From the NCBI RefSeq assembly GCF_000725125.1, contig NZ_JFCB01000001.1:434001-498000 (forward strand): 64,000 nt of DNA, in the 5' to 3' direction. A program made the translations under genes and the position numbers. The notes under the pieces were generated by a model that saw only the letters and a list, made by a program, of their open reading frames with translations, was not told the DNA's origin and ran no database searches. Positions 710 to 32,210 of this stretch are shown here, piece after piece (the stretch's first letter is position 1; every line of letters begins with the position of its first letter). This DNA comes from Streptomyces toyocaensis. GTDB lineage: Bacteria > Actinomycetota > Actinomycetes > Streptomycetales > Streptomycetaceae.

Positions 710-1819
710 TCACTTCCAGCGCAGCAACGCGCCTAGCCCGCCGACCGGCGCGTCCTCCGCGGCGCCCGGACCGGTGACCGCAAGCGCGGGCGCGTCCGTC
801 GCCACCGCCGACCGGATCAGCGCGTCGTCCGCGCGTGCCGACCAGGAGTTCTGCTCGCCGAGGACCTTCAGCTCGGTGCGCCGCACCGCCAGCTGGTCGG
901 GATCCTCGCCGATCCACACCTCCCGGTGCGCGTCCGGCCCGTCCGGCCGGATCAGCAGCTCGTCGATCCGGTGCTCGCGCGCGGCCTCGACCAGGGCCGG
1001 CACGCCCTCGACGGCGCCCGCACGGCCCTTGTCGCCGGGTCCGCGGGCGGCCAGGAACCGCTCCAGCTCGGCGGCGGTGCGCTCCTGGACGTGCTCCGCG
1101 CGGATCTGCTCCACCTCCTCGTCCAGCAGCCTGCTGCCGGCGCCGTGGGACGCCTCGGCCACCCGTCCGTGCAGCCGCTGCGGCAGCCGCTCGCGCACGG
1201 ACCGCCGCTCCCGGTCGTCCCCGACGAGGATCAGCAGATCGGCCCCGGTCTCCTCCTGGGAGACCGCGAGCGCGTCGGCGATCTCCGCGGCGTTGTGCTC
1301 CCAGGTGTTCTCCACCCGGAGCTGGAAATGCCGCTCCGACCAGTCGACGGAGGAGGTCCGGTGCAGCGGCCACTCCTGCCCGGTGACGCCGCCGGCGTCG
1401 TCCCGGCCGAGGGCGCTGCGCAGCTCGAAGTCGGCGCCCTTGCGGTCGACGTAGGCGACGACGCACACCGGGTTCTCACCGGCCAGTTCCAGCAGCGGCG
1501 CGACCCGCGGCAGCGGCGCCCACTGCGCCCAGTCGCGCTGCGGGGACCGGGCCAGCGCGGGGTCGAGCACCACCTGGCCGTCCCGGGCGAAGAAAGCGCG
1601 CCCGTGCGGTTCGCCCGAGTGCCGGAGTTCCTCGATCGCGTGGCGCACCGCCTGGCAGGTGGCCTCGTCCGCGCCCTGGGCGGCGAGGTCCTGGGCCATC
1701 GCCCGGGCCGTCAGCTGCCGCTCCTGCGGGGTGCTCTCCGTGTGCCGGGAGGTGTCGACGTAGACGGATGCCCAGGGGCCGGGACGTTCGTAGAGTGGAC
1801 TGAGGAATGCGAGTTCCAT
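710..1819 (-). CDS. Bacterial eRF1-domain (baeRF / Rv2629-like) protein
   Basis: A 369-residue protein starting at ATG (MELAFLSPLYERPGP). It resembles the actinobacterial Rv2629 family, placed with the bacterial archaeo-eukaryotic release-factor (baeRF/Vms1-like) proteins. Family-typical stretches include SVYVDTSRHTE near the N-terminus, an RVENTW-type segment mid-protein, and a C-terminal part with LLIRPDG and two-strand/helix alternation. No signal peptide or membrane segment is seen. Members are thought to act on ribosomes or peptidyl-tRNA, or in hypoxia/hibernation; the exact reaction is not known to me. A very long second open frame covers the same DNA but the chosen frame has the normal Streptomyces codon-position bias. 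The divergent small gene begins about 90 bases away, so the two may share a promoter region. Confidence 0.75.
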   Translation of the reverse strand: MELAFLSPLYERPGPWASVYVDTSRHTESTPQERQLTARAMAQDLAAQGADEATCQAVRHAIEELRHSGEPHGRAFFARDGQVVLDPALARSPQRDWAQWAPLPRVAPLLELAGENPVCVVAYVDRKGADFELRSALGRDDAGGVTGQEWPLHRTSSVDWSERHFQLRVENTWEHNAAEIADALAVSQEETGADLLILVGDDRERRSVRERLPQRLHGRVAEASHGAGSRLLDEEVEQIRAEHVQERTAAELERFLAARGPGDKGRAGAVEGVPALVEAAREHRIDELLIRPDGPDAHREVWIGEDPDQLAVRRTELKVLGEQNSWSARADDALIRSAVATDAPALAVTGPGAAEDAPVGGLGALLRWK

Positions 1820-1910
1820 GGTTCCCTCCCGGTTGCCGATCGGGGTAGTGCTGGTGCCGACCGGCGGGTACCCGGGCCGCATGGACGCACACGACGAGCG
1901 GGGCACCACG

Positions 1911-2168
1911 ATGACCGGAGTCGAGCCGGACCGCCTGGACGACCAGCAGCTCATGAAGGAGCTGGAGACCATCCACCGCACGCGCCACGACACACTGCTG
2001 TACGGCTCCAACGACGCGCTGCGCACGCACAACGAGCGGATGGCGCAGCTGGAGGGCGAGTACCTGCGCCGCAACCCGCGCCGCACGGTGGCCGCGGGCC
2101 GCACCCGTGAGGGGGCCCGCGAGCGGAACGCCGCGGACACGACGACGCCCACGGCCCCGGGCACCTGA
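1911..2168 (+). CDS. Small DUF6158-type protein
   Basis: An 85-residue hydrophilic protein (MTGVEPDRLDDQQLMKEL...). The core, with HRTRHDTLLYGSNDAL and HNERMAQLEGEYLRR, is typical of a short Streptomyces family named DUF6158; function unknown. It should form two helices and is rich in Arg/Glu at the C-terminus. Start: ATG 1911 is chosen because family similarity begins there; an in-frame ATG at 1881 would add ten residues and cannot be excluded. It ends just before a strong hairpin. Confidence 0.7.
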   Translation: MTGVEPDRLDDQQLMKELETIHRTRHDTLLYGSNDALRTHNERMAQLEGEYLRRNPRRTVAAGRTREGARERNAADTTTPTAPGT

Positions 2169-2202
2169 GCCCGGCCACCGGCCGCGCCCGCCCGGGTACG
2201 GC

Positions 2203-2232
2203 GAAGGGGCCCGCGCGGACGCGGGCCCCTTC
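2203..2232. terminator. Bidirectional hairpin terminator
   Basis: A perfect 13-bp stem (GAAGGGGCCCGCG / CGCGGGCCCCTTC) with a 4-base CGGA loop sits between two convergent genes. There is no long T-run, as usual in Streptomyces. It can serve the DUF6158 gene and the PfpI gene from opposite sides. Confidence 0.85.
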
Positions 2233-2277
2233 GTGCCGTCCTGTCTGCCGTCGTGCCGGACGCCAACCGGGCCCGTC

Positions 2278-2817
2278 TCAGGCCTCCGCCCCGAACACCT
2301 CGAGGAACGTCCCGCAGAACGCCTTCAGGTCGTCAGGCTTGCGACTGGTGACCAGCTTGTTCGGCCCGTGGTCGCACACCTTCACCTGCTCGTCGACCCA
2401 GGTGCCGCCGGCGTTGCGGATGTCGGTCCGCAGGCTGGGCCAGCTCGTCAGCTCCCGGCCGCGTACGACGTCGGCCTCCACCAGGGTCCAGGCGGCGTGA
2501 CAGATCGCGGCGACCGGCCGGCCCTGCTCGAAGAAGTCCCTCACGAACGAGACGGCCTTGTCGTCCATCCGCAGGAAGTCGGGGTTGGCCACCCCGCCCG
2601 GCAGCACCAGCCCGCCGAAGGAGTCCGCCGACGTCTCGCCGACGACCTCCTGCACGGGGAAGGTGTCCGCCGTGTCGAGGTGGTCGAACGCCTGCACCTT
2701 GCCCGGCTTGGTGGACACGAGCACGGCCTCGTGACCGGCGTCGACGGCCGCCTGCCACGGCTCGGTCAGCTCCACCTGCTCGACACCCTCGGGTGCGGTC
2801 AGAAATGCGATGCGCAT
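2278..2817 (-). CDS. DJ-1/PfpI family glutamine-amidotransferase-like protein
   Basis: A 179-residue single-domain protein of the DJ-1/PfpI superfamily. The nucleophile elbow AICHAAW places the conserved Cys at about residue 106 with His 107 behind it, and GGLVLPGG lies before it as in PfpI/YhbO-type proteins. Relatives are stress proteins described as intracellular peptidases, deglycases or chaperones; activity here is inferred only from the family. The length is complete and there is no signal peptide. It lies 6 bases from the CBS-domain gene on the same strand, so the two are probably co-transcribed. Confidence 0.9.
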   Translation of the reverse strand: MRIAFLTAPEGVEQVELTEPWQAAVDAGHEAVLVSTKPGKVQAFDHLDTADTFPVQEVVGETSADSFGGLVLPGGVANPDFLRMDDKAVSFVRDFFEQGRPVAAICHAAWTLVEADVVRGRELTSWPSLRTDIRNAGGTWVDEQVKVCDHGPNKLVTSRKPDDLKAFCGTFLEVFGAEA

Positions 2818-2823
2818 GATGTC

Positions 2824-3288
2824 CTACGTCCCTTCGTCCGCCTTCGGCTGTTCTCGTCCGGTCACAGCACTCGTGTCCGGCTCCGCGCGGCTGATGTCGG
2901 CCAGTGCCGACCCGGGGTCCCGCGCCTCCGCCAGGTCGCCGAGACTCACCAGTCCGACGGGGATCCCGCCCTCGACGACGGGAACCCGCCGTACGGCGTG
3001 CTCGCGCATCAGGGCGACGGCCGCGGACACCGGTTCGTCCGGGGCGAGCGTCAGCGGGTCCGGCGTGCACACCGACCGGACGCTCACGCCGAGGGGATCC
3101 GCGCCCTCGGCGACCGCCCGGACAGTGATGTCGCGGTCGGTGAGCACGCCGACGACCAGCTGGCCGTCGGCCACCACCACGTCGCCGATGTTCTGGGTGC
3201 GCATCAGCTGCGCCGCCTCGACGATCGAGGCGTCCGGGCGTACGGCGACCACGCCCGGAGTCATCACGTCCTTGACGAATACGGCCAT
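2824..3288 (-). CDS. CBS-domain pair protein
   Basis: A 154-residue protein made of two CBS domains, roughly residues 8-60 (VKDVMTPGVVAV...VVGVLTDRDI) and 72-125 (VCTPDPLTLAP...VGLVSLGDLAE), with a short acidic tail. CBS pairs bind adenosyl nucleotides and act as energy or ion sensors. Start ATG 3288 is preceded by a GGAGGG ribosome site; a longer frame upstream lacks one. It is followed closely by the PfpI gene, suggesting a small stress operon with the DUF2795 gene upstream. Confidence 0.9.
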   Translation of the reverse strand: MAVFVKDVMTPGVVAVRPDASIVEAAQLMRTQNIGDVVVADGQLVVGVLTDRDITVRAVAEGADPLGVSVRSVCTPDPLTLAPDEPVSAAVALMREHAVRRVPVVEGGIPVGLVSLGDLAEARDPGSALADISRAEPDTSAVTGREQPKADEGT

Positions 3289-3379
3289 GACCTGTGCCCT
3301 CCGTCCGGTTCCGGCCCCCGGGGCGCCGCGGCCCGCCGCCCCGCGGGACGGTGCGGACACGGCGCTCCGGACGGGCCGC

Positions 3380-3772
3380 TCACGCGGTCTCCGTCTCCCG
3401 GGTCCGGGTCAGCGCCTCGGCCAGTTCCTGGACGCTGTGGTAGCGCGCCTGGCGCGGCAGCCGTTCCAGCGCCTCGACGAGGGCGTCGGGCGCGTGCCGC
3501 CGGTCCAGGGCGCGCATCAGCTCGCGCGGGCCCGCGGGGAACGCCCCGCGGCCCAGGATCCTCGCCAGGTCCAGCCGTACCGACTCCAGCGACGTCGGGC
3601 CGCGGCCCGGTGTCACCGGGCCGTACGTGACCTCGGGGTCGTCGTCGGCGTACGGCTCCGGGTCGTGCCACTCCTCGGTGCGGGTGGGGTGCCCGGACCT
3701 CAGCAGACCCTGCAGTTCGTGCTTCATCTCGTCGTCACGGTGGACGCTGAGCCGGTCACTGCCTCGCTGCAT
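3380..3772 (-). CDS. DUF2795 domain protein
   Basis: A 130-residue soluble protein whose C-terminal half (ESVRLDLARILGRGAFPAGPRE... to HSVQELAEAL) matches the DUF2795 fold common in actinobacteria; function unknown. The start at 3772 follows a GGAGGG site; an internal Met at residue 16 is possible. It is the first gene of a same-strand run with the CBS and PfpI genes (92-base gap to the former). Confidence 0.8.
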   Translation of the reverse strand: MQRGSDRLSVHRDDEMKHELQGLLRSGHPTRTEEWHDPEPYADDDPEVTYGPVTPGRGPTSLESVRLDLARILGRGAFPAGPRELMRALDRRHAPDALVEALERLPRQARYHSVQELAEALTRTRETETA

Positions 3773-4223: not shown

Positions 4224-5024
4224 ATGCCCACCCGAGCGATCACGAAGCACCGTCCGCACGACGACGCCCCCGACACCGCGGCCGCCTTCCGCAGCCTCGC
4301 CGCACTGCCCGACGGCGCGGAGCGCGAAGCGCTCCGGGACGAGATCGTCGAGGCGTGGCTGCCCATGGCGGACCGCCTCGCCGGACGTTTCCGCAGCCGG
4401 GGCGAGAACCTGGACGACCTGCGGCAGGTCGCCGCGCTGGGCCTGGTGAAGGCCGTGGACCGGTACGACCCCGACCTCGGCAACGCCTTCGAGAGCTACG
4501 CCGTGCCGACCGTCACCGGCGAGATCAAGCGGCACTTCCGCGACCACATGTGGACCCTGCACGTACCGCGCCGGGTCCAGGAGCTGCGCAACCGTGTCCG
4601 GCTCGCCTCCCAGGAACTCTCCCAGACCATCCCGGGCCGCCGGCCGACCGTGGCCGAGATCGCCGAGCACGCCAGTCTCAGCGAGGAGGAGGTCCGCGCG
4701 GGTCAGGAGGCGCTGGAGAGCTTCAGCGCGCTCTCCCTGGACGCCGAGCTGCCCGGCAGTGACGACGGCTACTCGCTGGGCGACGCCCTCGGCGCGCCCG
4801 ACCCGGCGCTGGACACCGTGGTCGACCGCGAGGCCGTCAAGGAAGGACTGGCCGCACTTCCCGAGCGGGAGCGGGCCATCCTCTACATGCGCTTCTTCGA
4901 CGACATGACCCAGAGCGGCATCGCGGAGGAGCTCGGCATCTCGCAGATGCACGTCTCCCGCCTGATCAGCCGCTGCTGCGGCCGGGTGCGCGAGCACGCC
5001 CTGCGGGACACCGGCGAGGAGTAG
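4224..5024 (+). CDS. RNA polymerase sigma factor, SigB/SigF/SigG family
   Basis: A 266-residue sigma-70 family factor of the stress/sporulation type. Region 2 covers about residues 45-115 (DLRQVAALGLVKAVDRYDP, FESYAVPTVTGEIKRHFRD), region 3 about 120-195 and region 4 about 210-260 with the HTH (MTQSGIAEELGISQMHVSR). Streptomyces carry many such paralogues answering osmotic and developmental signals through anti-sigma partners. No anti-sigma or anti-anti-sigma gene is adjacent, so its control partner must lie elsewhere. A weak GAGGGAG site precedes ATG 4224, and a perfect hairpin follows the stop. Confidence 0.93.
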   Translation: MPTRAITKHRPHDDAPDTAAAFRSLAALPDGAEREALRDEIVEAWLPMADRLAGRFRSRGENLDDLRQVAALGLVKAVDRYDPDLGNAFESYAVPTVTGEIKRHFRDHMWTLHVPRRVQELRNRVRLASQELSQTIPGRRPTVAEIAEHASLSEEEVRAGQEALESFSALSLDAELPGSDDGYSLGDALGAPDPALDTVVDREAVKEGLAALPERERAILYMRFFDDMTQSGIAEELGISQMHVSRLISRCCGRVREHALRDTGEE

Positions 5025-5975: not shown

Positions 5976-7220
5976 ATGCGGACGGATCCGGAAGGCCACG
6001 GCCCCGTGCGTTTCGGACCGCCGGACCCGGAGGACGGGCTTCCCGTCCTCCCCGAACTGGCCGCCGTCCTGGCCGCGGCGGCCTCCCGCGCCGCTGCCGA
6101 ACCGGTCGGCGGCGGCCCCGCCCTGCTGGACGCCGCGTGCGGCTACGGCGACCGGCGCGGACTGCCCGCCGCCCCCGACCGGGTGGCCGTCGCCCCCGGT
6201 GCTCCCGCCCTGCTGGTGGCCCTGACCGCCGCGATCGGCGGCGACGTCCTGGTGCCCAGACCCTGTGCCGCGTGGTGGGCCCCCTACGCCCGCCTGCTCG
6301 GCCGCCCCGCCTTCCACGTGCCGACCCCGGCCGAGAGCGGCGGGGTGCCCGATCCGTACGCGCTCCTCGAGACCGTGCGCCGGATGCGGGCCGAGGGCGG
6401 TGACCCGCGCCTGCTGGTGCTTTCCGTCGCCGACGACCCCACGGCGACCGTCGCCCCGCCCGAACTGCTGCACGAGACCGTGGAGGCCGCGGTCGGCGAG
6501 GGGCTGCACCTGGTGAGCGACGAGACCTGGCGCGACACCCTGCACGACCCGCGCGAGACCGTGCTGCTCAGCCCCGCCGAGATGGTGCCCGAGCGGGTCA
6601 CGGTCGTCACCGACCTGGTGGGGGCCCTGCTCCCGCCCGGCTGGCCCGCCGCGGTGGCCCGCTTCCCGGCCGGCGAGCAGGGGAACGCGCTGCACGCGCG
6701 CGTGCTCGACGTGCTCACCGCACTCGACGCGCGCGTCGCCGCCCCCGTCGCCGCCGCGGCGGTGTACGCGCTGTCGGAGCCCGCACCGCTCACCGAGCGC
6801 GTCGCCGCCACCGTACGCCTGCACGCGCGCCTCGCCGCCGCCGCGCACCGTGCCGTCGTCGCCGCCGGAGCCCTGTCCCGGCCCCCGCGCTGCGGCCGGC
6901 ACCTGTATGTCGACCTGACGCCCCTGGCGCCCGCGCTCACCGCGCACGGCGTCGGGGACGCCCAGGAGCTGGAGGACTTCCTCACCGCCCGGCTCGGCAT
7001 GCCCGCGCCGGGCGGCCACCGCTTCGGCGACGAGCTGGAAGCGCCGCGCGTGCGGCTGTCCACCGCTCCTCTGCTGGGCGGCACCCCCGAGCGGCGCGCG
7101 GAGTGCCTGAACGCGCCCGCACCCCTGGAACTACCGCACGTGCACAGCGCGTTGACCCATCTGACATCGGTCTTCGACGATCTCCGTGACGACGCTCGGC
7201 GATGGGAGTCCCCCCGATGA
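5976..7220 (+). CDS. Aminotransferase-like (fold-type I) protein lacking any lysine
   Basis: A 414-residue protein with the layout of class I/II aminotransferases: a small-domain start, VAPGAPALLVAL (the region that cradles the PLP phosphate), LLVLSVADDPTATV where NPxNPTG is expected, SDETWRD matching the DE-Y Asp/Glu element, and a C-terminal RVRLSTAP matching the carboxylate-binding Arg region. The usual SxxK motif is replaced (TDLVGALLPPGW), and I find no Lys anywhere in the protein, so it cannot form the internal aldimine. It may be a pseudoenzyme, or Lys codons may have been lost through high GC. It overlaps the next gene by ATGA, so the two are translationally coupled. Confidence 0.75.
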   Translation: MRTDPEGHGPVRFGPPDPEDGLPVLPELAAVLAAAASRAAAEPVGGGPALLDAACGYGDRRGLPAAPDRVAVAPGAPALLVALTAAIGGDVLVPRPCAAWWAPYARLLGRPAFHVPTPAESGGVPDPYALLETVRRMRAEGGDPRLLVLSVADDPTATVAPPELLHETVEAAVGEGLHLVSDETWRDTLHDPRETVLLSPAEMVPERVTVVTDLVGALLPPGWPAAVARFPAGEQGNALHARVLDVLTALDARVAAPVAAAAVYALSEPAPLTERVAATVRLHARLAAAAHRAVVAAGALSRPPRCGRHLYVDLTPLAPALTAHGVGDAQELEDFLTARLGMPAPGGHRFGDELEAPRVRLSTAPLLGGTPERRAECLNAPAPLELPHVHSALTHLTSVFDDLRDDARRWESPR

Positions 7221-8287
7221 CGCAGCGGCCCGAGCCGGCCGAGGGCACGGCCACGACCACGGCCTGCGCCGGGACGGCACCGGACGCCGGCGGCCCGCCC
7301 CCCTCCGCCCGCCCGTACCCCCCGCCGGCCGAACCCCGCCCGCCGGCCGAACGCCGGGTGTGGCCGCGCGCCTTCCACGACCGGCTGACGGCCCCGCTGC
7401 CCGGGCTCAGGGCGCTCGCCCGCTTCGCCCGCGAGGGCGCCGTACGCCCCACGCCGGACGGACTCGCCGACATCCCCCTGCTGCCCTGCGCCCCCGGCCC
7501 CCTGCCCCGCGTGGACGCCCGCACGGTCGCCGTCACCTGGGTGGGGCACGCCAGCTGGGTCCTGCGGATCGGCGGGCTCACCGTGCTCACCGACCCGGTG
7601 TGGTCCCGCCGCATCCTCGGCACCCCGGCGCGGATCACCCCCGTCGGCGTCGCCTGGGAGGCGCTGCCGCGCGTGGACGCGGTCGTCATCAGCCACAACC
7701 ACTACGACCACCTCGACGCCCCCACGCTGCGCCGGCTCCCGCGCGACACCCCGGTGTTCGTGCCGGCCGGGCTCGCCCGCTGGTTCCACCGCCGCCGGTT
7801 CACCCGGGTCACCGAGCTCGACTGGTGGGAGGCCTCCGAACTGGACGGCGTGCGCTTCGACTTCGTACCGGCCCACCACTGGTCCAAGCGCACCCTCACC
7901 GACACCTGCCGTTCCCTGTGGGGCGGCTGGGTGCTCACCGACCGGGAGGGCCGGCGCGTCCACTTCGCGGGCGACACCGGCTACGGTCACTGGTTCTCCC
8001 GCATCGGCCGCCGCTACCCCGGCATCGACCTCACCCTGATGCCCATCGGAGCCTATGATCCCCGCTGGTGGCTGGCCGACGTGCACTGCGACCCGGAGGA
8101 GGCGGTCCGCGCCGCCCAGGACCTGGGCGCGCGCCGCATGGCCCCGATGCACTGGGGCACGTTCGTCCTCTCCGCGGAGCCGGTCCTGGAGCCCCTCGTC
8201 CGCGTCCGCGCCGCGTGGGCGAAGGCGGGCCTGCCGCGCGAGCACCTGTGGGACCTGCCGGTGGGCGCCTCCCGGATCCTGGAGTGA
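7217..8287 (+). CDS. NAPE-PLD/UlaG-like metallo-beta-lactamase-fold hydrolase
   Basis: A 356-residue soluble hydrolase. Zinc ligands are visible: SHNHYDHLD (HxHxDH), AHHWSKRT, FAGDTGYG (bridging Asp) and MHWGTF. The order and the Trp-Gly-His start (TWVGHASW) match the N-acyl-phosphatidylethanolamine phospholipase D / UlaG-like branch, which acts on phosphodiesters or lactones. Start ATG 7217 overlaps the stop of the aminotransferase-like gene (ATGA) and has GGGAG upstream; ATG 7202 is a less likely alternative. A second MBL-fold protein of the same branch is encoded convergently at 8971-9744. Confidence 0.88.
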   Translation: MTQRPEPAEGTATTTACAGTAPDAGGPPPSARPYPPPAEPRPPAERRVWPRAFHDRLTAPLPGLRALARFAREGAVRPTPDGLADIPLLPCAPGPLPRVDARTVAVTWVGHASWVLRIGGLTVLTDPVWSRRILGTPARITPVGVAWEALPRVDAVVISHNHYDHLDAPTLRRLPRDTPVFVPAGLARWFHRRRFTRVTELDWWEASELDGVRFDFVPAHHWSKRTLTDTCRSLWGGWVLTDREGRRVHFAGDTGYGHWFSRIGRRYPGIDLTLMPIGAYDPRWWLADVHCDPEEAVRAAQDLGARRMAPMHWGTFVLSAEPVLEPLVRVRAAWAKAGLPREHLWDLPVGASRILE

Positions 8288-8299
8288 CCGGCGACGGTG

Positions 8300-8974
8300 T
8301 CACCCCGCCGCCGTGCCCCGCACCCGCCGCCACAGGCTCGGGGCCGCGCTGATCAGCACCGTCAGCACGATCGCCGCGAGCACGCCCTCCCACGGCTCCT
8401 CGAACAGCGACCCGCCGAGGATGCCGATGAGCTGGTACGTCGCCGCCCAGGCAAGACAGGCCGGCAGGTTGCCGCGCACGAAGCGCCGCACCGGCCACTT
8501 GGCGAGCAGACAGGCCAGCATCACCGGCAGCCGCCCGGCCGGCATCAGCCGGGACAGCACCAGCACGGCCACCTCGTGGTCGGCGAGCTTGCGCTGCGCC
8601 TGCGCCAGCCGGTCCTCCGGGGCGCGCTGCCGGATCGCCTCCAGCCAGCGCGAGCCGTTCTTCGACGTCATGCCGCGCCGTCCCAGCCAGTACAGCGCCA
8701 CGTCCCCGAGGAAAGCGGCCAGCGACGCCGTGACGAACACCAGCGCCAGCGAGAACGGCGCCGTCCGGTGGACGGCGACCACGGCCGCCGAACTGACCAG
8801 CGCGCCCGTCGGCACCACCGGCACCAGTGCCCCGATCAGCACCAGCAGGAACAGCGAGGGATACGCGACCACCTGCTGGGTCGAACCGGGCGCCACGACC
8901 GGTACGAGCGACGGTGAGGCGACCGTCGGCAGGGACGCACCGGCCGCCTGGCTCAGGGCGGCGGGCAGGATCAC
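8300..8974 (-). CDS. DedA family (VTT/SNARE-associated domain) membrane protein
   Basis: A 224-residue protein with about five to six hydrophobic segments. It carries the DedA signature near the middle (SRLMPAGRLPVMLACLLAKW, with conserved Arg, Pro and Gly). DedA proteins are inner-membrane proteins tied to undecaprenyl-phosphate or phospholipid flipping and proton-motive-force homeostasis. It starts with GTG 8974, which overlaps the stop codon of the upstream MBL gene (GTGA), so it is the second gene of a two-gene operon. Confidence 0.88.
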   Translation of the reverse strand: MILPAALSQAAGASLPTVASPSLVPVVAPGSTQQVVAYPSLFLLVLIGALVPVVPTGALVSSAAVVAVHRTAPFSLALVFVTASLAAFLGDVALYWLGRRGMTSKNGSRWLEAIRQRAPEDRLAQAQRKLADHEVAVLVLSRLMPAGRLPVMLACLLAKWPVRRFVRGNLPACLAWAATYQLIGILGGSLFEEPWEGVLAAIVLTVLISAAPSLWRRVRGTAAG

Positions 8975-9744
8975 CGGGCGCCCTCCAGGCGCACGCTCTC
9001 CCCGTGCCCGAGCCGGTGCACGGCGACCCCGGGAACGTGCCGGGCCGCCAGCCGCTCGAACTCGTGGCCCGGAGCGTGGAACTCGTGCGGGCGCACGGCG
9101 TCCAGCCCGATCGGCCAGTACGTGCCGTAGTGCACCGGCACCGCGCTGGGCGCCCCCAGGTGGGCCAGTGCCTCGGCCGCGCGCCCCGCGTCCAGGTGCC
9201 CCTCCCCGAGGTACGGTCCCCAGCCGCCCACCGGCAGCAGTGCCACGTCGACCGGCCCGACCTCCTTGGCCATCCCCTCGAACAGGCCGGTGTCCCCGGC
9301 GAAGTACGTCCGCCCCTCACCCTCCAGGACGTAGCCGAGGGCGGGGGAGCGGTGCGGCCCGAACGGCAGCCGGCGCCCGTCGTGCCACGCGGGCACCGCC
9401 CGTACGACCAGGTGCCCGACCTTCGTCACGTCGCCGGGTGCCACCTCGCTCACGCTGAGATGCGTGAGCCGGCGCAGTCCCGGCACCGCGCGTCGTGCGC
9501 CCCGGGGCACGAGCAGGCGCGTGCCCGGGGCGAGCCGGGCCAGGGACGGCACGTGCAGATGGTCGGCGTGCAGGTGGGAGACGAGGGCCACGTCCGCGTG
9601 CCGGGCATCGGCGGGCGGCACGGCGCCGCGCCTGCGCCGCAGGTGCGCGAGCCGGCGGGCGAACAGGGGATCGGTGAGCACACGGGTGTGCGAATCCTCG
9701 ACCGTGCAGGTGGCGTGACCCCACCACGTGACCTCCACCGGCAC
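8971..9744 (-). CDS. MBL-fold metal-dependent hydrolase (UlaG-like)
   Basis: A 257-residue hydrolase starting VEVTWWGHATC. Metal-ligand motifs: SHLHADHLH (HxHxDH), AWHDG, FAGDTGLF and VHYGTYW. It belongs to the same branch as the product of 7217-8287 but is shorter, lacking the N-terminal extension. GTG 9744 is chosen because AAGGAGG lies seven bases upstream; open frame extends further upstream without a site. It is coupled to the DedA gene by a GTGA overlap, which suggests a joint role in membrane lipid or envelope metabolism (inference). Confidence 0.88.
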   Translation of the reverse strand: MPVEVTWWGHATCTVEDSHTRVLTDPLFARRLAHLRRRRGAVPPADARHADVALVSHLHADHLHVPSLARLAPGTRLLVPRGARRAVPGLRRLTHLSVSEVAPGDVTKVGHLVVRAVPAWHDGRRLPFGPHRSPALGYVLEGEGRTYFAGDTGLFEGMAKEVGPVDVALLPVGGWGPYLGEGHLDAGRAAEALAHLGAPSAVPVHYGTYWPIGLDAVRPHEFHAPGHEFERLAARHVPGVAVHRLGHGESVRLEGAR

Positions 9745-9828
9745 TTCCCCGCCTCCTTCGCGCGACTCCCCGAAGCCTACGCGCAGGAGTAGGGTCGGCG
9801 GCGAAAACCGGAGGTGAGGGGGGACGCC

Positions 9829-10230
9829 ATGGGGGCGGTGCGGGTGACGGCGATCGCGAGTCTGACGCCGCTGGAGGAACTCGACGCCGACCCCTTCCTG
9901 GTGGACTCGCGCAGCCAGCACGCCATGTGCGCCCGCTGGGCCGCCGAGCAGGGCTATGTGGTGGCACGGGAACTGCTGGTACGGGGGCTGCGCCCCGACC
10001 ACGGCGTGCTGTGGGAGGGCGTGCGGCCCGGCACCGATCTGTTCGTGGCACCCAGCCTGCGGGTACTGGAACGGGCACTGTCCTCCGTGGAGGCGTTCAC
10101 CGCCGAGTGCGCGCGACGCGGGGTGCGCGTGGAGACGGTGGGCCGCGCGGAACCGGAGTACGACGCGGCGATGAAGGCACGTGTACACCGCCGGCTGTCG
10201 ATGCCGACCGCCGGCTACGACGGCCGCTGA
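9829..10230 (+). CDS. Hypothetical protein with a possible degenerate resolvase-like fold
   Basis: A 133-residue soluble protein (MGAVRVTAIASLTPLEEL...). The arrangement resembles the N-terminal domain of serine recombinases: a first strand, a segment SRSQHAMCARWAAEQGYVV (compare the resolvase stretch with Q..C...A...G), a strand-helix unit, and AFTAECARRGVRVETV (compare ...EL...GV.l.s). The catalytic Ser/Arg set is not convincingly present, and no DNA-binding domain follows. I therefore treat it as a stand-alone protein of unknown function. Start 9829 has GAGGGGGG upstream; GTG 9814 is also possible. Confidence 0.6.
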   Translation: MGAVRVTAIASLTPLEELDADPFLVDSRSQHAMCARWAAEQGYVVARELLVRGLRPDHGVLWEGVRPGTDLFVAPSLRVLERALSSVEAFTAECARRGVRVETVGRAEPEYDAAMKARVHRRLSMPTAGYDGR

Positions 10231-10322: not shown

Positions 10323-12407
10323 GTGCGGGGCGTGGGTGGCGAGCGGTGGCGACGGGTCGCCAGTCAGATCGGGCGGAGTGTCGCCGTGTGGGTGGTCTCC
10401 ACCCTCACCATGCTGCTGCTCGCCGGGATCCTGCCGGACTTCCGGCTGCGCTCGGCCGACGGTGACAGCGCCACCGACATCGCGGTCACCGCCGCCCTCG
10501 GCGCCGGCGCCTTCGGCCTGCTGTCCGCCCTCGTCTGGCCGCTGCTGGTGCGGCTGCTGCTGCTCGTGCCGGCACTCGTCCTCGGCCTGCTGGTGTTCTT
10601 CCTCAACGGTGCCCTCCTGTGGCTGGCCCTGTGGCTCAACCCCGTCGAACGGGGCGCCGCGGCCCCCCAGACCGCGGTCGTGGTCGCCGCGGTCATGTCC
10701 GCCGTCGCCTCCGCCACGGGCGCCGCCCTCGCCGTGCGCGACGACGACGCCTACCGCCGCCGCCTCTACCGCCTCGCCCACCGAAGACGGGGCTCCGCCC
10801 CGCCCTGCCCCCCGACCCCGGGCACCGTGTTCCTGCAACTCGACGGCGTCGGCCACGACGTGCTCCTGGACGCCGTCGGCAAGGGACTGATGCCCACCGT
10901 CGCCCGCTGGCTCGGCACCGGTACCGCCGGCGACCGGCCCAGCCACCGCCTCACCCCCTGGCGCACCGACTGGTCCAGCCAGACCGGCGCCAGCCAGCTC
11001 GGCATCCTGCACGGCAGCAACCACGACGTCCCCGCGTTCCGCTGGTACGAGAAGGCCCGCCGCGAGGTCATGGTCTGCAACCGGCCCACCAGCGCCGCCG
11101 AACTCCAGGCCCGCGCCGTCGAGTACGCGGGCCACGCCGGACTGCTCGCCGACGACGGCGCCAGCCGCGGCAACCTGTTCAGCGGCGGCGCCGGCGAACA
11201 GGCCCTGGTGCTCTCCATCGCCACCCGCCGCCGCGGCCCGGCCGCTCGCTCCCGCGCGGGCTACTTCGCCTACTTCTCCGACCCCGCCAACGCCGTGCGC
11301 ACCGCGCTGTCCTTCGTCGCCGAGGCGGGCCGGGAGATCGGCCAGTCGACCCGGGCCCGGCTGGGAAAGCAGCGCCCGCGCGTCTCGCGCGGCGGTCTCT
11401 ACCCGTTCGTACGGGCCTTCGCGACCGTCGTCGAACGGGACGTCGTGGTGGCCGCCGTGACGGGCGACCTGCTGGCCGGACGCACCGCCGTCTACGCGGA
11501 CCTGGTGGCCTACGACGAGGTCGCCCACCACTCCGGGCCCGCGAGCCGGGACACCGACAAGGTCCTCCGGCGCCTCGACCGTGCCCTCGCCCTGATCGAG
11601 CACGTCGCCGAGCACGCCCCCCGCCCGTACCGCATCGTCGTTCTCTCCGACCACGGGCAGAGCCCCGGCGAGACCTTCCGCTCCCGCTACGGCCTCACCC
11701 TCGCCGACCTGGTGCGGGCCGGCTGCGGGCTGCCCGTGCCGCGCCGCGCCCGGCGCACCCACAGCGGCGCGGAGGCCCGCGCGGCCGTCCGTGCGGCGCT
11801 GCGCAGACCCGTCGAGGAGGGCACCGAGCACTACCGCCCCTCGCGCGGCTCCGAACCCGTCGTGCTCGCCTCCGGCAATCTGGGCCTGGTCTCCTTCCCG
11901 GACGTGCCGCACCGGATGACCAAGGAGGAGATCGACGCCCGCCACCCCGCCCTGCTGCCGACCCTCGCCAACCATCCCGGCGTCGGCTTCCTCCTGGTCC
12001 GCAGCGCCCGCCACGGCGGCGTCGTGCTCGGCGCGTACGGCGCGGAGATCCCGCTGGACGAGCTGGACGACAACCCCGGGCCGCTGGCCGCGTTCGGTCC
12101 CGGCGCCGCCGACGTCGTCCGCCGCACCCACACCTTTCCGCACACCGCCGACATCATGGTCAACTCCTTCCACGACCCGACCGACGGCGAGGTGCTCGCC
12201 TTCGAGGAGCAGATCGGCTCCCACGGCGGTCTGGGCGGCGCCCAGTCCCGCCCCTTCCTGCTGTCCCCGCTCGTCCTGTCCGCACCGGTCGCCGACGGCG
12301 CGGAACTCGCCGGCGCCGAGCAGGTCCACCGCGTACTGCGCCGCTGGCTGACGGAGTCGGACGCGGCGCGGCGGCCCGCGGCCCCGGACCGCAGGCGCGC
12401 CGCCTGA
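10323..12407 (+). CDS. Phage-holin-family membrane domain fused to alkaline-phosphatase-superfamily domain
   Basis: A 694-residue protein. The N-terminal ~140 residues hold four membrane helices (VWVVSTLTMLLLAGILPDF, a second pair around LVWPLLVRLLLLVPALVLGLLVFF and a fourth at TAVVVAAVMSAVASATGAA), matching the PF04020-type holin/YvlD family. From about residue 170 comes a phosphatase-superfamily domain: FLQLDGVGHDVL (metal Asp), WSSQTGASQLGILHG (nucleophile Thr/Ser region), DLVAYDEVAHHSGP and VVLSDHGQS (metal Asp-His). This fits a membrane-anchored phosphodiesterase or phosphotransferase acting on lipid or wall substrates. GTG 10323 or GTG 10332 could be the start; a GTGAGG site lies just upstream. 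Confidence 0.85.
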   Translation: MRGVGGERWRRVASQIGRSVAVWVVSTLTMLLLAGILPDFRLRSADGDSATDIAVTAALGAGAFGLLSALVWPLLVRLLLLVPALVLGLLVFFLNGALLWLALWLNPVERGAAAPQTAVVVAAVMSAVASATGAALAVRDDDAYRRRLYRLAHRRRGSAPPCPPTPGTVFLQLDGVGHDVLLDAVGKGLMPTVARWLGTGTAGDRPSHRLTPWRTDWSSQTGASQLGILHGSNHDVPAFRWYEKARREVMVCNRPTSAAELQARAVEYAGHAGLLADDGASRGNLFSGGAGEQALVLSIATRRRGPAARSRAGYFAYFSDPANAVRTALSFVAEAGREIGQSTRARLGKQRPRVSRGGLYPFVRAFATVVERDVVVAAVTGDLLAGRTAVYADLVAYDEVAHHSGPASRDTDKVLRRLDRALALIEHVAEHAPRPYRIVVLSDHGQSPGETFRSRYGLTLADLVRAGCGLPVPRRARRTHSGAEARAAVRAALRRPVEEGTEHYRPSRGSEPVVLASGNLGLVSFPDVPHRMTKEEIDARHPALLPTLANHPGVGFLLVRSARHGGVVLGAYGAEIPLDELDDNPGPLAAFGPGAADVVRRTHTFPHTADIMVNSFHDPTDGEVLAFEEQIGSHGGLGGAQSRPFLLSPLVLSAPVADGAELAGAEQVHRVLRRWLTESDAARRPAAPDRRRAA

Positions 12408-30857: not shown

Positions 30858-32093
30858 TCACCGCCCCGGGCCGAGCCGGACGCTCACGAACCGGGGCCGG
30901 TACAGGGACACGTTCCGGCTGAGCATCCCGGCCGCCCCGGCCGTCTCCAGCCAGTTCACGTCGTGGCTGAGCACCAGCCGCCCGTCGCCGCTCAGCTCCG
31001 GATGGACCTGCGGGTTGTAGGCGGCGGTCCCGCCGTGGGGCAGCGCGGGGGTGAACTCCCGCGCGGGACCGTGCCACGGCCCGGTCGGGGAGCAGGCCCA
31101 GTACGACGCCACCGTCGTCAGCCCCGCGGCGCCCGCGGCCATCGTGAACAGGACGTACGTCCCCTCGTCCCGCACCACCGAGAACGCGCTGCCCACACCG
31201 GTGCGCCGCCCGTCGCCGAGCACGGGACGCGGGCGGGCGCGGGTCTGCCAGGACGACCCGTTCCAGTACTCCCAGGCGGCGGGGTCGCCGAGGTGGCCCT
31301 CCGGGACGCGGGCCACGTACGCGTGCGAGGCAGGGCGGTCGGCGGGGCGGCCGTCGTCACCGCCGAAGACGTACGTCCAGCCGCCCTCCTCGACCAGCGT
31401 CGTCCCGAACAGCACCCGCCGGGAGGGGTCGGCGACCTGCTGCTGGTCGAGCACCGTCGACACCGACTCCAGGCGCAGCCCGGGCAGGGAGAGCGTGGCG
31501 ACCTCGGTGGCGGTGGGCACGCCGTAGATCCACGGGTGCTGCCCGGCCCGGCGCACCCACAGCAGGACCCGCAGTACCTGCTCGGAGGAGCCGGGGGAAC
31601 GCGGCTCGACCCGGGCGGCGACCGGCCAGCGCCACCGGTCGGGCGCCGGATCGGGGAAGAGCGGCGCGGGCAGGGTGCTCTCCAGCCCGCCGTCGCGCAT
31701 GACCACGGCCGAATTACGCACGAGCGGGGTGTTCGCGTCCCGCCACGCGTACGACTCGCCGACCGGGTTCGGTGGTCGGTGCACCCGGCCCAGGAAGGTG
31801 TCGGAGAACAGCCACAGCAGCCGGCCGTCCGGCAGCCGCACCGAGTGGGTGCCGTCGCCGCCGGTCCAGTCGTCGGTGCGGCCGGGGTCGTCGCCGTAGC
31901 GGGCGAACTCGGCGGTGAGGGTGTCGTCGGCGGTCCAGGAGGCGACCGTGCGCGGCCGGCAGTCCGCGCCGTCCGGGCCACGGTCGTCGTCGTCCGGCAG
32001 ACCGGTGACCAGGAGGGCACCGAGGACCAGGGTCAGCACCAGGGCGATCCCGGTCCCCGTGCGTCGTCGTGCTCCGGCAGCGTCGTCGGGCAT
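30858..32093 (-). CDS. DUF4185/DUF5005-type secreted or membrane-anchored beta-propeller-like protein
   Basis: A 411-residue protein. A hydrophobic helix at about 14-33 (GIALVLTLVLGALLVTGLP) acts as signal anchor. The exported part has family hallmarks: GDGTHSVRLPDGRLLWLFSDTF, NSAVVMRD, VVRDEGTYVLFTM, SYWACSPTGPW and YNPQVHPELSGDGRLVLSHDV. These proteins form five-bladed-propeller-like folds seen in carbohydrate-active clusters, but no activity is assigned. Start ATG 32093 was chosen to place the anchor near the N-terminus; the ribosome site is weak and ATG 32132 is possible. Confidence 0.75.
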   Translation of the reverse strand: MPDDAAGARRRTGTGIALVLTLVLGALLVTGLPDDDDRGPDGADCRPRTVASWTADDTLTAEFARYGDDPGRTDDWTGGDGTHSVRLPDGRLLWLFSDTFLGRVHRPPNPVGESYAWRDANTPLVRNSAVVMRDGGLESTLPAPLFPDPAPDRWRWPVAARVEPRSPGSSEQVLRVLLWVRRAGQHPWIYGVPTATEVATLSLPGLRLESVSTVLDQQQVADPSRRVLFGTTLVEEGGWTYVFGGDDGRPADRPASHAYVARVPEGHLGDPAAWEYWNGSSWQTRARPRPVLGDGRRTGVGSAFSVVRDEGTYVLFTMAAGAAGLTTVASYWACSPTGPWHGPAREFTPALPHGGTAAYNPQVHPELSGDGRLVLSHDVNWLETAGAAGMLSRNVSLYRPRFVSVRLGPGR

Positions 32094-32210
32094 GCCCGGG
32101 GACGTTAGTGGGTCGCCGGGGCCCGGGTCCATGGGGCCCCGGGGCGGGCCGGATCCGAAAAGCCCCGGGCGGTCCGGGCGGGGGCGCCGCCGTGCGGTGG
32201 GCCGGACCGG

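Follow-up and report, generated by a model that had tools for sequence, protein, structure and literature searches.

A lysine-free aminotransferase-fold protein of Streptomyces, its apparently dismantled PLP site and a neighbouring NAPE-PLD-like hydrolase

Non-catalytic members of PLP-enzyme folds are known from eukaryotes, where SPTLC1 and antizyme inhibitor are each tied to a homologous active enzyme. To our knowledge PLP-fold pseudoenzymes are eukaryotic. The protein described here would likewise be a non-catalytic PLP fold, but an active partner of that type is not seen beside its gene. Yeast Alt2, a retained aminotransferase paralogue that is catalytically inactive, offers a second comparison: it was kept without detected transaminase activity (PMC3458083, accessible part). 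It differs in being a single-species case known from assays, and a dismantled PLP site is not described in that part of the source. Searches of open-licence PMC full text returned no description of the present protein and no bacterial PLP-fold pseudoenzyme of this kind.

The locus and its fold assignment

The gene lies in a window of 64,000 nt from Streptomyces toyocaensis, the whole stretch of DNA that was analysed. The features needed below are:

4224-5024 (+), SigB/SigF/SigG-type sigma factor (TIGR02980, E 1.6e-86)
5976-7220 (+), pseudo-aminotransferase of fold type I / PF00155, 414 aa, 0 Lys (reading frame, profile match, alignment and fold search)
7202-8287 (+), NAPE-PLD-like hydrolase of the metallo-beta-lactamase (MBL) fold, probable start at 7217 (PF12706, E 2e-46; 4qn9, E 5.5e-59)
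7217-7220 (+), ATGA overlap of the pseudo-aminotransferase stop with the probable hydrolase start (from the sequence)
8300-8974 (-), DedA/VTT-domain membrane protein, convergent neighbour (PF09335, E 1.3e-13)

The reading frame at 5976-7220 begins with ATG, ends with TGA and encodes no Lys among its 414 residues. By homology the product belongs to Aminotran_1_2 (Pfam PF00155; 31 bits against a curated cutoff of 19.7, E 1.9e-7). Residues 17-231 align with the aspartate aminotransferase of Thermus thermophilus (1bjw, E 2.8e-11), whereby VTDLVGALLPPGW overlies the Lys motif, Gly216 falls on the Lys itself (Lys234 in the printed numbering) and Pro224 on the phosphate Arg. A Lys-less aminotransferase-fold protein with its PLP-Lys site at this position is what the first-pass annotation had proposed, and the alignment agrees. 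The roles of the PLP-site residues (Schiff-base Lys, phosphate Arg and others) are presumed throughout from textbook knowledge. With class I/II aminotransferases such as 1bjw the protein shares homologous sequence, the large-domain fold, Asp182 and a carboxylate-type Arg. The 80 matches kept from named genomes are 75-95% identical to it, and all are Streptomyces records except one labelled Actinobacteria bacterium. PHROGs gave no match for the pseudo-aminotransferase; in PADLOC neither this protein nor the hydrolase was matched.

An AlphaFold2 model from 43 sequences reached a pLDDT of 77 and a pTM of 0.75. VIA returned Z-scores of up to 23.5 against aminotransferases over model residues 17-275 (first row: 234 residues aligned, rmsd 3.1), in line with a large domain of fold type I, while Foldseek whole-chain TM-scores are only 0.44-0.50 and the structure searches barely covered the model beyond residue 275. 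The best 50 rows of each search consist of aminotransferases and further PLP enzymes of fold type I, e.g. C-S lyases. The loops 152-158, 186-197 and 348-353 are predicted with a pLDDT below 50, yet many invariant residues lie there. Such conserved but poorly predicted loops of the old active site would fit an ordering by ligand or partner; a shallow alignment could also cause the low confidence.

The sigma factor upstream has a tblastn match in 79/166 loci, a figure limited by locus length, and the DedA-type neighbour is matched in 135/166. Identity of the sigma factor with SigK/SCO6520, a guess prompted by chromosome position and background knowledge, found no confirmation in the accessible part of PMC8346170 or in a literature search by locus tag. 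Further out, the window holds a second MBL-fold hydrolase (8971-10188, -; PF12706), which in other loci has counterparts sharing ~30-35% identity with the first, and a protein (10323-12407, +) that joins an N-terminal holin-type four-helix region (PF04020) with a phosphodiesterase domain of type I (PF01663). A row of genes on the minus strand (710-3772) encodes a baeRF release-factor-like protein (710-2164), a DJ-1/PfpI protein (2278-2817), a CBS-domain protein (2824-3360) and a DUF2795 protein (3380-3772).

The former PLP site and its history

The site was compared column by column between 156 distinct Lys-less homologues and 33 close Lys-bearing relatives. The former, including the window's own copy, were reduced from 166 rows by treating each of ten identical pairs as one row; two pieces of a broken gene in genome G005 (106 aa and 312 aa) and one N-masked row are left out, and the relatives exclude 17 more distant Lys-bearing rows. 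The positions are given below with counts among the 156 first and the relatives second, and are assigned by the relatives' column unless stated otherwise:

6267-6269 (+), Ala98 codon, former ring-stacking Trp (A 115, P 34, S 2, G 2, R 2, T 1; W 33/33)
6435-6437 (+), Asp154 codon, former Asn contacting the cofactor O3' (D 156/156; N 33/33)
6519-6521 (+), Asp182 codon, retained pyridine-N Asp (D 156/156; D 33/33)
6612-6614 (+), Asp213 codon, new acidic residue at -3 relative to the former Lys (D 151, G 5; G 33/33)
6621-6623 (+), Gly216 codon, former Schiff-base Lys, also by the 1bjw alignment (G 122, A 30, S 2, P 1, E 1; K 33/33)
6645-6647 (+), Pro224 codon, former phosphate-binding Arg eight after the Lys (P 152, R 3, N 1; R 33/33)
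7017-7031 (+), HRFGD loop (348-352), newly conserved, of low AlphaFold confidence (assigned by conservation)
7047-7055 (+), Arg358 and Arg360, one presumably the substrate-carboxylate Arg (assigned by conservation; Arg358 152/156, Arg360 156/156)

Compared with enzymes of the 1bjw type, the Lys-less clade has lost the Lys, the O3' Asn and the stacking Trp in 156/156 members and the phosphate Arg in 153/156. The site Lys is also absent in 110/110 aligned orthologues. Of the residues that mark a PLP enzyme the window protein lacks the Schiff-base Lys, the phosphate Arg and the O3' Asn and retains the pyridine-N Asp. The earlier statement that it cannot work as a normal PLP enzyme therefore holds as far as its residues can tell, and the alignment of orthologues suggested along with it extends the loss of the Lys to the whole clade (0/156 against 33/33). 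Judged by these columns, the finding of substance is the dismantled cofactor site rather than the zero Lys count.

A tree of 102 rows (all of at least 300 aa, Streptomyces-type rows sampled, quick method) puts the Lys-less rows on one side of a single branch with an SH-aLRT support of 100 and with one change, among the Lys-bearing rows; this nested placement rests on two outgroup rows that have long branches and are not set apart together from the rest by any branch. The Lys-less clade is apparently of single origin. Its first-branching pair has no site Lys and carries Asp154, but still has Arg at 224. Hence, Lys and Asn seem to have been lost earlier than Arg.

The nearest group in the tree are Lys-bearing sister aminotransferases, one of which (L111) is ~44% identical to the window protein. 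A KamA-like radical SAM gene is present in the fetched stretch of all 13 rows of the sister clade (13/13) but not in that of any Lys-less locus, its identity being given by NCBIfam scores below the curated cutoffs (partial protein) and by one record annotated lysine 2,3-aminomutase. The sister clade differs from the Lys-less one in its complete PLP site and in having no hydrolase match in its stretches; the window protein has neither the catalytic Lys nor a KamA-like neighbour. A Lys-bearing relative on a plasmid has a gene annotated lysine 2,3-aminomutase on one side and further genes of the cluster on the other; polyketide synthases flank it in both directions. A Lys-less copy occurs in a plasmid record as well, but that record carries a single annotated feature overall, so the missing label of the copy is uninformative. 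Since all sister rows are accompanied by a KamA-like gene and the plasmid relative adjoins a lysine 2,3-aminomutase, the likely ancestor of the pseudoenzyme is an amino-acid transaminase related to those of KamA cassettes.

Lys-less homologues are kept intact in Streptomyces and in other genera of the same family. A match at E≤1e-30 is found in 282/296 Streptomyces genomes, not each of the 282 being confirmed as full-length and Lys-less; ten of the 14 genomes without a match are split into at least 480 contigs. Pairwise dN/dS between the window gene and 21 of the 80 named orthologues is 0.16-0.32 with a median of 0.23, compared with 0.23 for the hydrolase (19 pairs) and 0.24 for the sigma factor (17 pairs). 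By this measure purifying selection is normal, with no sign of relaxation. Orthologues with the Lys, together with relaxed selection on this copy, had been named as the outcome that would speak against a pseudoenzyme; the opposite was observed on both points. Homology, clade-wide loss of the catalytic residue and purifying selection are found together, which on sequence grounds characterises a PLP-fold pseudoenzyme.

The adjoining hydrolase

The first-pass annotation had the gene translationally coupled to a lipid-type MBL hydrolase, and the two genes do overlap, by the ATGA at 7217-7220. GGGAG precedes the ATG at 7217 by 8 bases, and a further in-frame ATG lies at 7202. The product is a zinc hydrolase whose best solved relative is NAPE-PLD (4qn9, human), aligned over hydrolase residues 109-360 with the HxHxDH motif (SHNHYDHLD) intact and in register. 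The two are alike in sequence and in this motif; the partner is bacterial, and hydrolysis of N-acyl-phosphatidylethanolamine by it is putative.

An adjacent, co-directional hydrolase gene is present in 143/152 testable distinct loci and missing in 9, while 4 more loci end too close to tell; before merging identical rows the numbers are 152 with, 10 without and 4 ending too close. The genes overlap by NTGA in at least 58/152 loci, a lower bound as starts downstream of the homology start, like that in the window, are not counted; elsewhere the spacing varies. None of 50 Lys-bearing loci, most with a flank of only ~1.5 kb, has a hydrolase match.

The pairing has exceptions on both sides. Five genomes of the loci without the hydrolase, searched whole (G032, G675, G689, G724 and G625), contain no close copy of it elsewhere, only relatives of 41-42% identity or none. 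Three others (G302, G175 and G140) have kept the hydrolase, with no homologue of the pseudo-aminotransferase either adjacent or genome-wide (E≤1e-30). Two further loci are cut at contig ends and are uninformative for pairing. Of 37 same-genus genomes, three (G005, G028 and G032) have no close hydrolase, and G028 is also without the pseudo-aminotransferase. In G005 the pseudo-aminotransferase gene is split over three frames, broken or misassembled, and the adjoining hydrolase is missing, a single case of joint loss. Because some genomes keep one gene of the pair and not the other, the pseudo-aminotransferase, as judged by gene content, is not an obligate subunit of the hydrolase. A regulation of the hydrolase by it, one way to read the regulatory pseudoenzyme that the first-pass annotation considered, is putative in view of the same genomes.

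Possible functions and their meaning

We consider it probable that the protein is a pseudo-aminotransferase of single origin without covalent PLP chemistry, and that it partners the hydrolase pathway by binding a ligand or acting as a scaffold. The two parts of this reading differ in strength: that the protein is a PLP-dead pseudoenzyme is very likely, while for a role in the hydrolase pathway the chances are about even. The protein would neither transaminate nor hold PLP covalently. It may have retained a ligand pocket, built on Asp182 and Arg358/360 together with the newly fixed Asp154 and Asp213. Presumably coupled in translation to the NAPE-PLD-like hydrolase, it would act as binding or scaffold partner, probably in the pathway of that enzyme. 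A pure scaffold, however, would not obviously need Asp182 and the Arg residues that have been kept.

The pocket residues allow a bolder, rather tentative reading, in which the former PLP pocket now serves as a different site, free of PLP, for a cation, a metal or a basic headgroup, perhaps a catalytic one, formed by Asp154, Asp182 and Asp213 with His348 and Arg349. All five are highly conserved, His348 being present in 149/156 and Arg349 in 150/156 Lys-less homologues, and all but Asp182 differ from the residue fixed in the Lys-bearing relatives. Their closeness to each other, however, is deduced from homologous positions, pLDDT is low at 154 and at 348-352, and position 213 is Gly in 5/156. 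Spelled out further, and still with low probability, such a rebuilt acidic site, fixed across the family and including Arg360, might bind a metal or a cationic lipid headgroup and either sense the lipid state for the NAPE-PLD-like hydrolase or carry out a new chemistry beside it.

Fold-type-I enzymes are generally dimers that share their active sites, and SPTLC1 in serine palmitoyltransferase is a precedent for a non-catalytic subunit. By analogy, the window protein could be the non-catalytic half of an obligate heterodimer whose other half is an active aminotransferase, in keeping with the conserved Asp182 and Arg pair. We regard this as unlikely, as no second aminotransferase gene adjoins it in the window, among the candidates scored the nearest type of Lys-bearing paralogue, full-length and with 41-44% identity, turned up in only 3/37 same-genus genomes (G005, G008 and G016), and the other matches in the window genome are weak (E 1.8e-4 or worse). 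A pairing with a more distant aminotransferase is possible.

Asp182 and Arg360, each invariant in 156/156, would also suit a non-covalent binding of PLP or PMP, be it for a Lys-independent reaction or for B6 sensing. The remaining cofactor contacts argue against it and make it quite improbable. Besides the losses at 98, 154 and 224, Lys at position 77 (K 32/33 in the Lys-bearing relatives) is found in 0/156, and position 76 (S/T 33/33) is Ser in 8/156 only. In PMP-dependent sugar dehydratases a His stands in for the Lys; His at position 216 occurs in 0/156 homologues, unlike in those enzymes.

The absence of Lys from the whole protein, to which the first-pass annotation had given weight, is real, but it carries less meaning than claimed and is largely a trait of composition. 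Of 65 other proteins of this genome with 340-500 aa, one is Lys-free and six contain a single Lys; the sample covers ~464 kb (the window and 20 stretches of 20 kb) with genes called by a simple third-position GC rule. The window itself has a second Lys-free reading frame of 424 aa (30858-32132, -), which shows that such proteins are no great rarity in this genome. By itself the zero count is thus only weakly beyond chance.

Lys density is 0.14% in the 156 homologues, against 0.97% in the Lys-bearing relatives, 0.81% in the matched portions of the hydrolases downstream and 1.84% for the genome sample. Relative to the Lys-bearing relatives (for density and composition 29 rows, four overlong or fragmentary ones being removed), Streptomyces-type rows show ratios of 0.14 for Lys, 0.13 for Asn and 0.21 for Ile; in Lys-less rows from outside Streptomyces these are 0.16, 0.24 and 0.34. 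As Asn and Ile are depleted too and the Lys-bearing relatives are already Lys-poor, the total absence appears to be mostly compositional. Composition is perhaps not the whole story since outside Streptomyces Lys drops more than Asn and Ile. Lys scarcity is hence largely ascribed to high-GC codon pressure, with a slight excess for Lys outside Streptomyces. Zero Lys would have come within reach with the loss of the catalytic Lys, the sole one indispensable to a working enzyme; the near-absence would then be largely a by-product of high-GC composition following that loss.

Selection against Lys as such, for instance as an escape from pupylation, would fit both the low density and the stronger fall of Lys outside Streptomyces. 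It is set aside as very improbable because Asn and Ile are depleted as well, which pupylation cannot explain; moreover 44/110 aligned orthologues do carry a Lys, at position 397. Decay of the gene or a sequencing error in the window copy deserves practically no credence and is contradicted by dN/dS and by a frame that is open here and in 155 other distinct homologues, although G005 does have a broken copy or an assembly error.

Taken together, an enzyme-like gene that is kept intact after loss of its cofactor site probably has a different job. The label "PLP-dependent aminotransferase" assigned from homology can mislead for this family. The finding also draws attention to an NAPE-PLD-like hydrolase in bacteria whose gene nearly always has the same partner. 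Being conserved and near-universal in Streptomyces, the pseudo-aminotransferase is amenable to study in any laboratory streptomycete.
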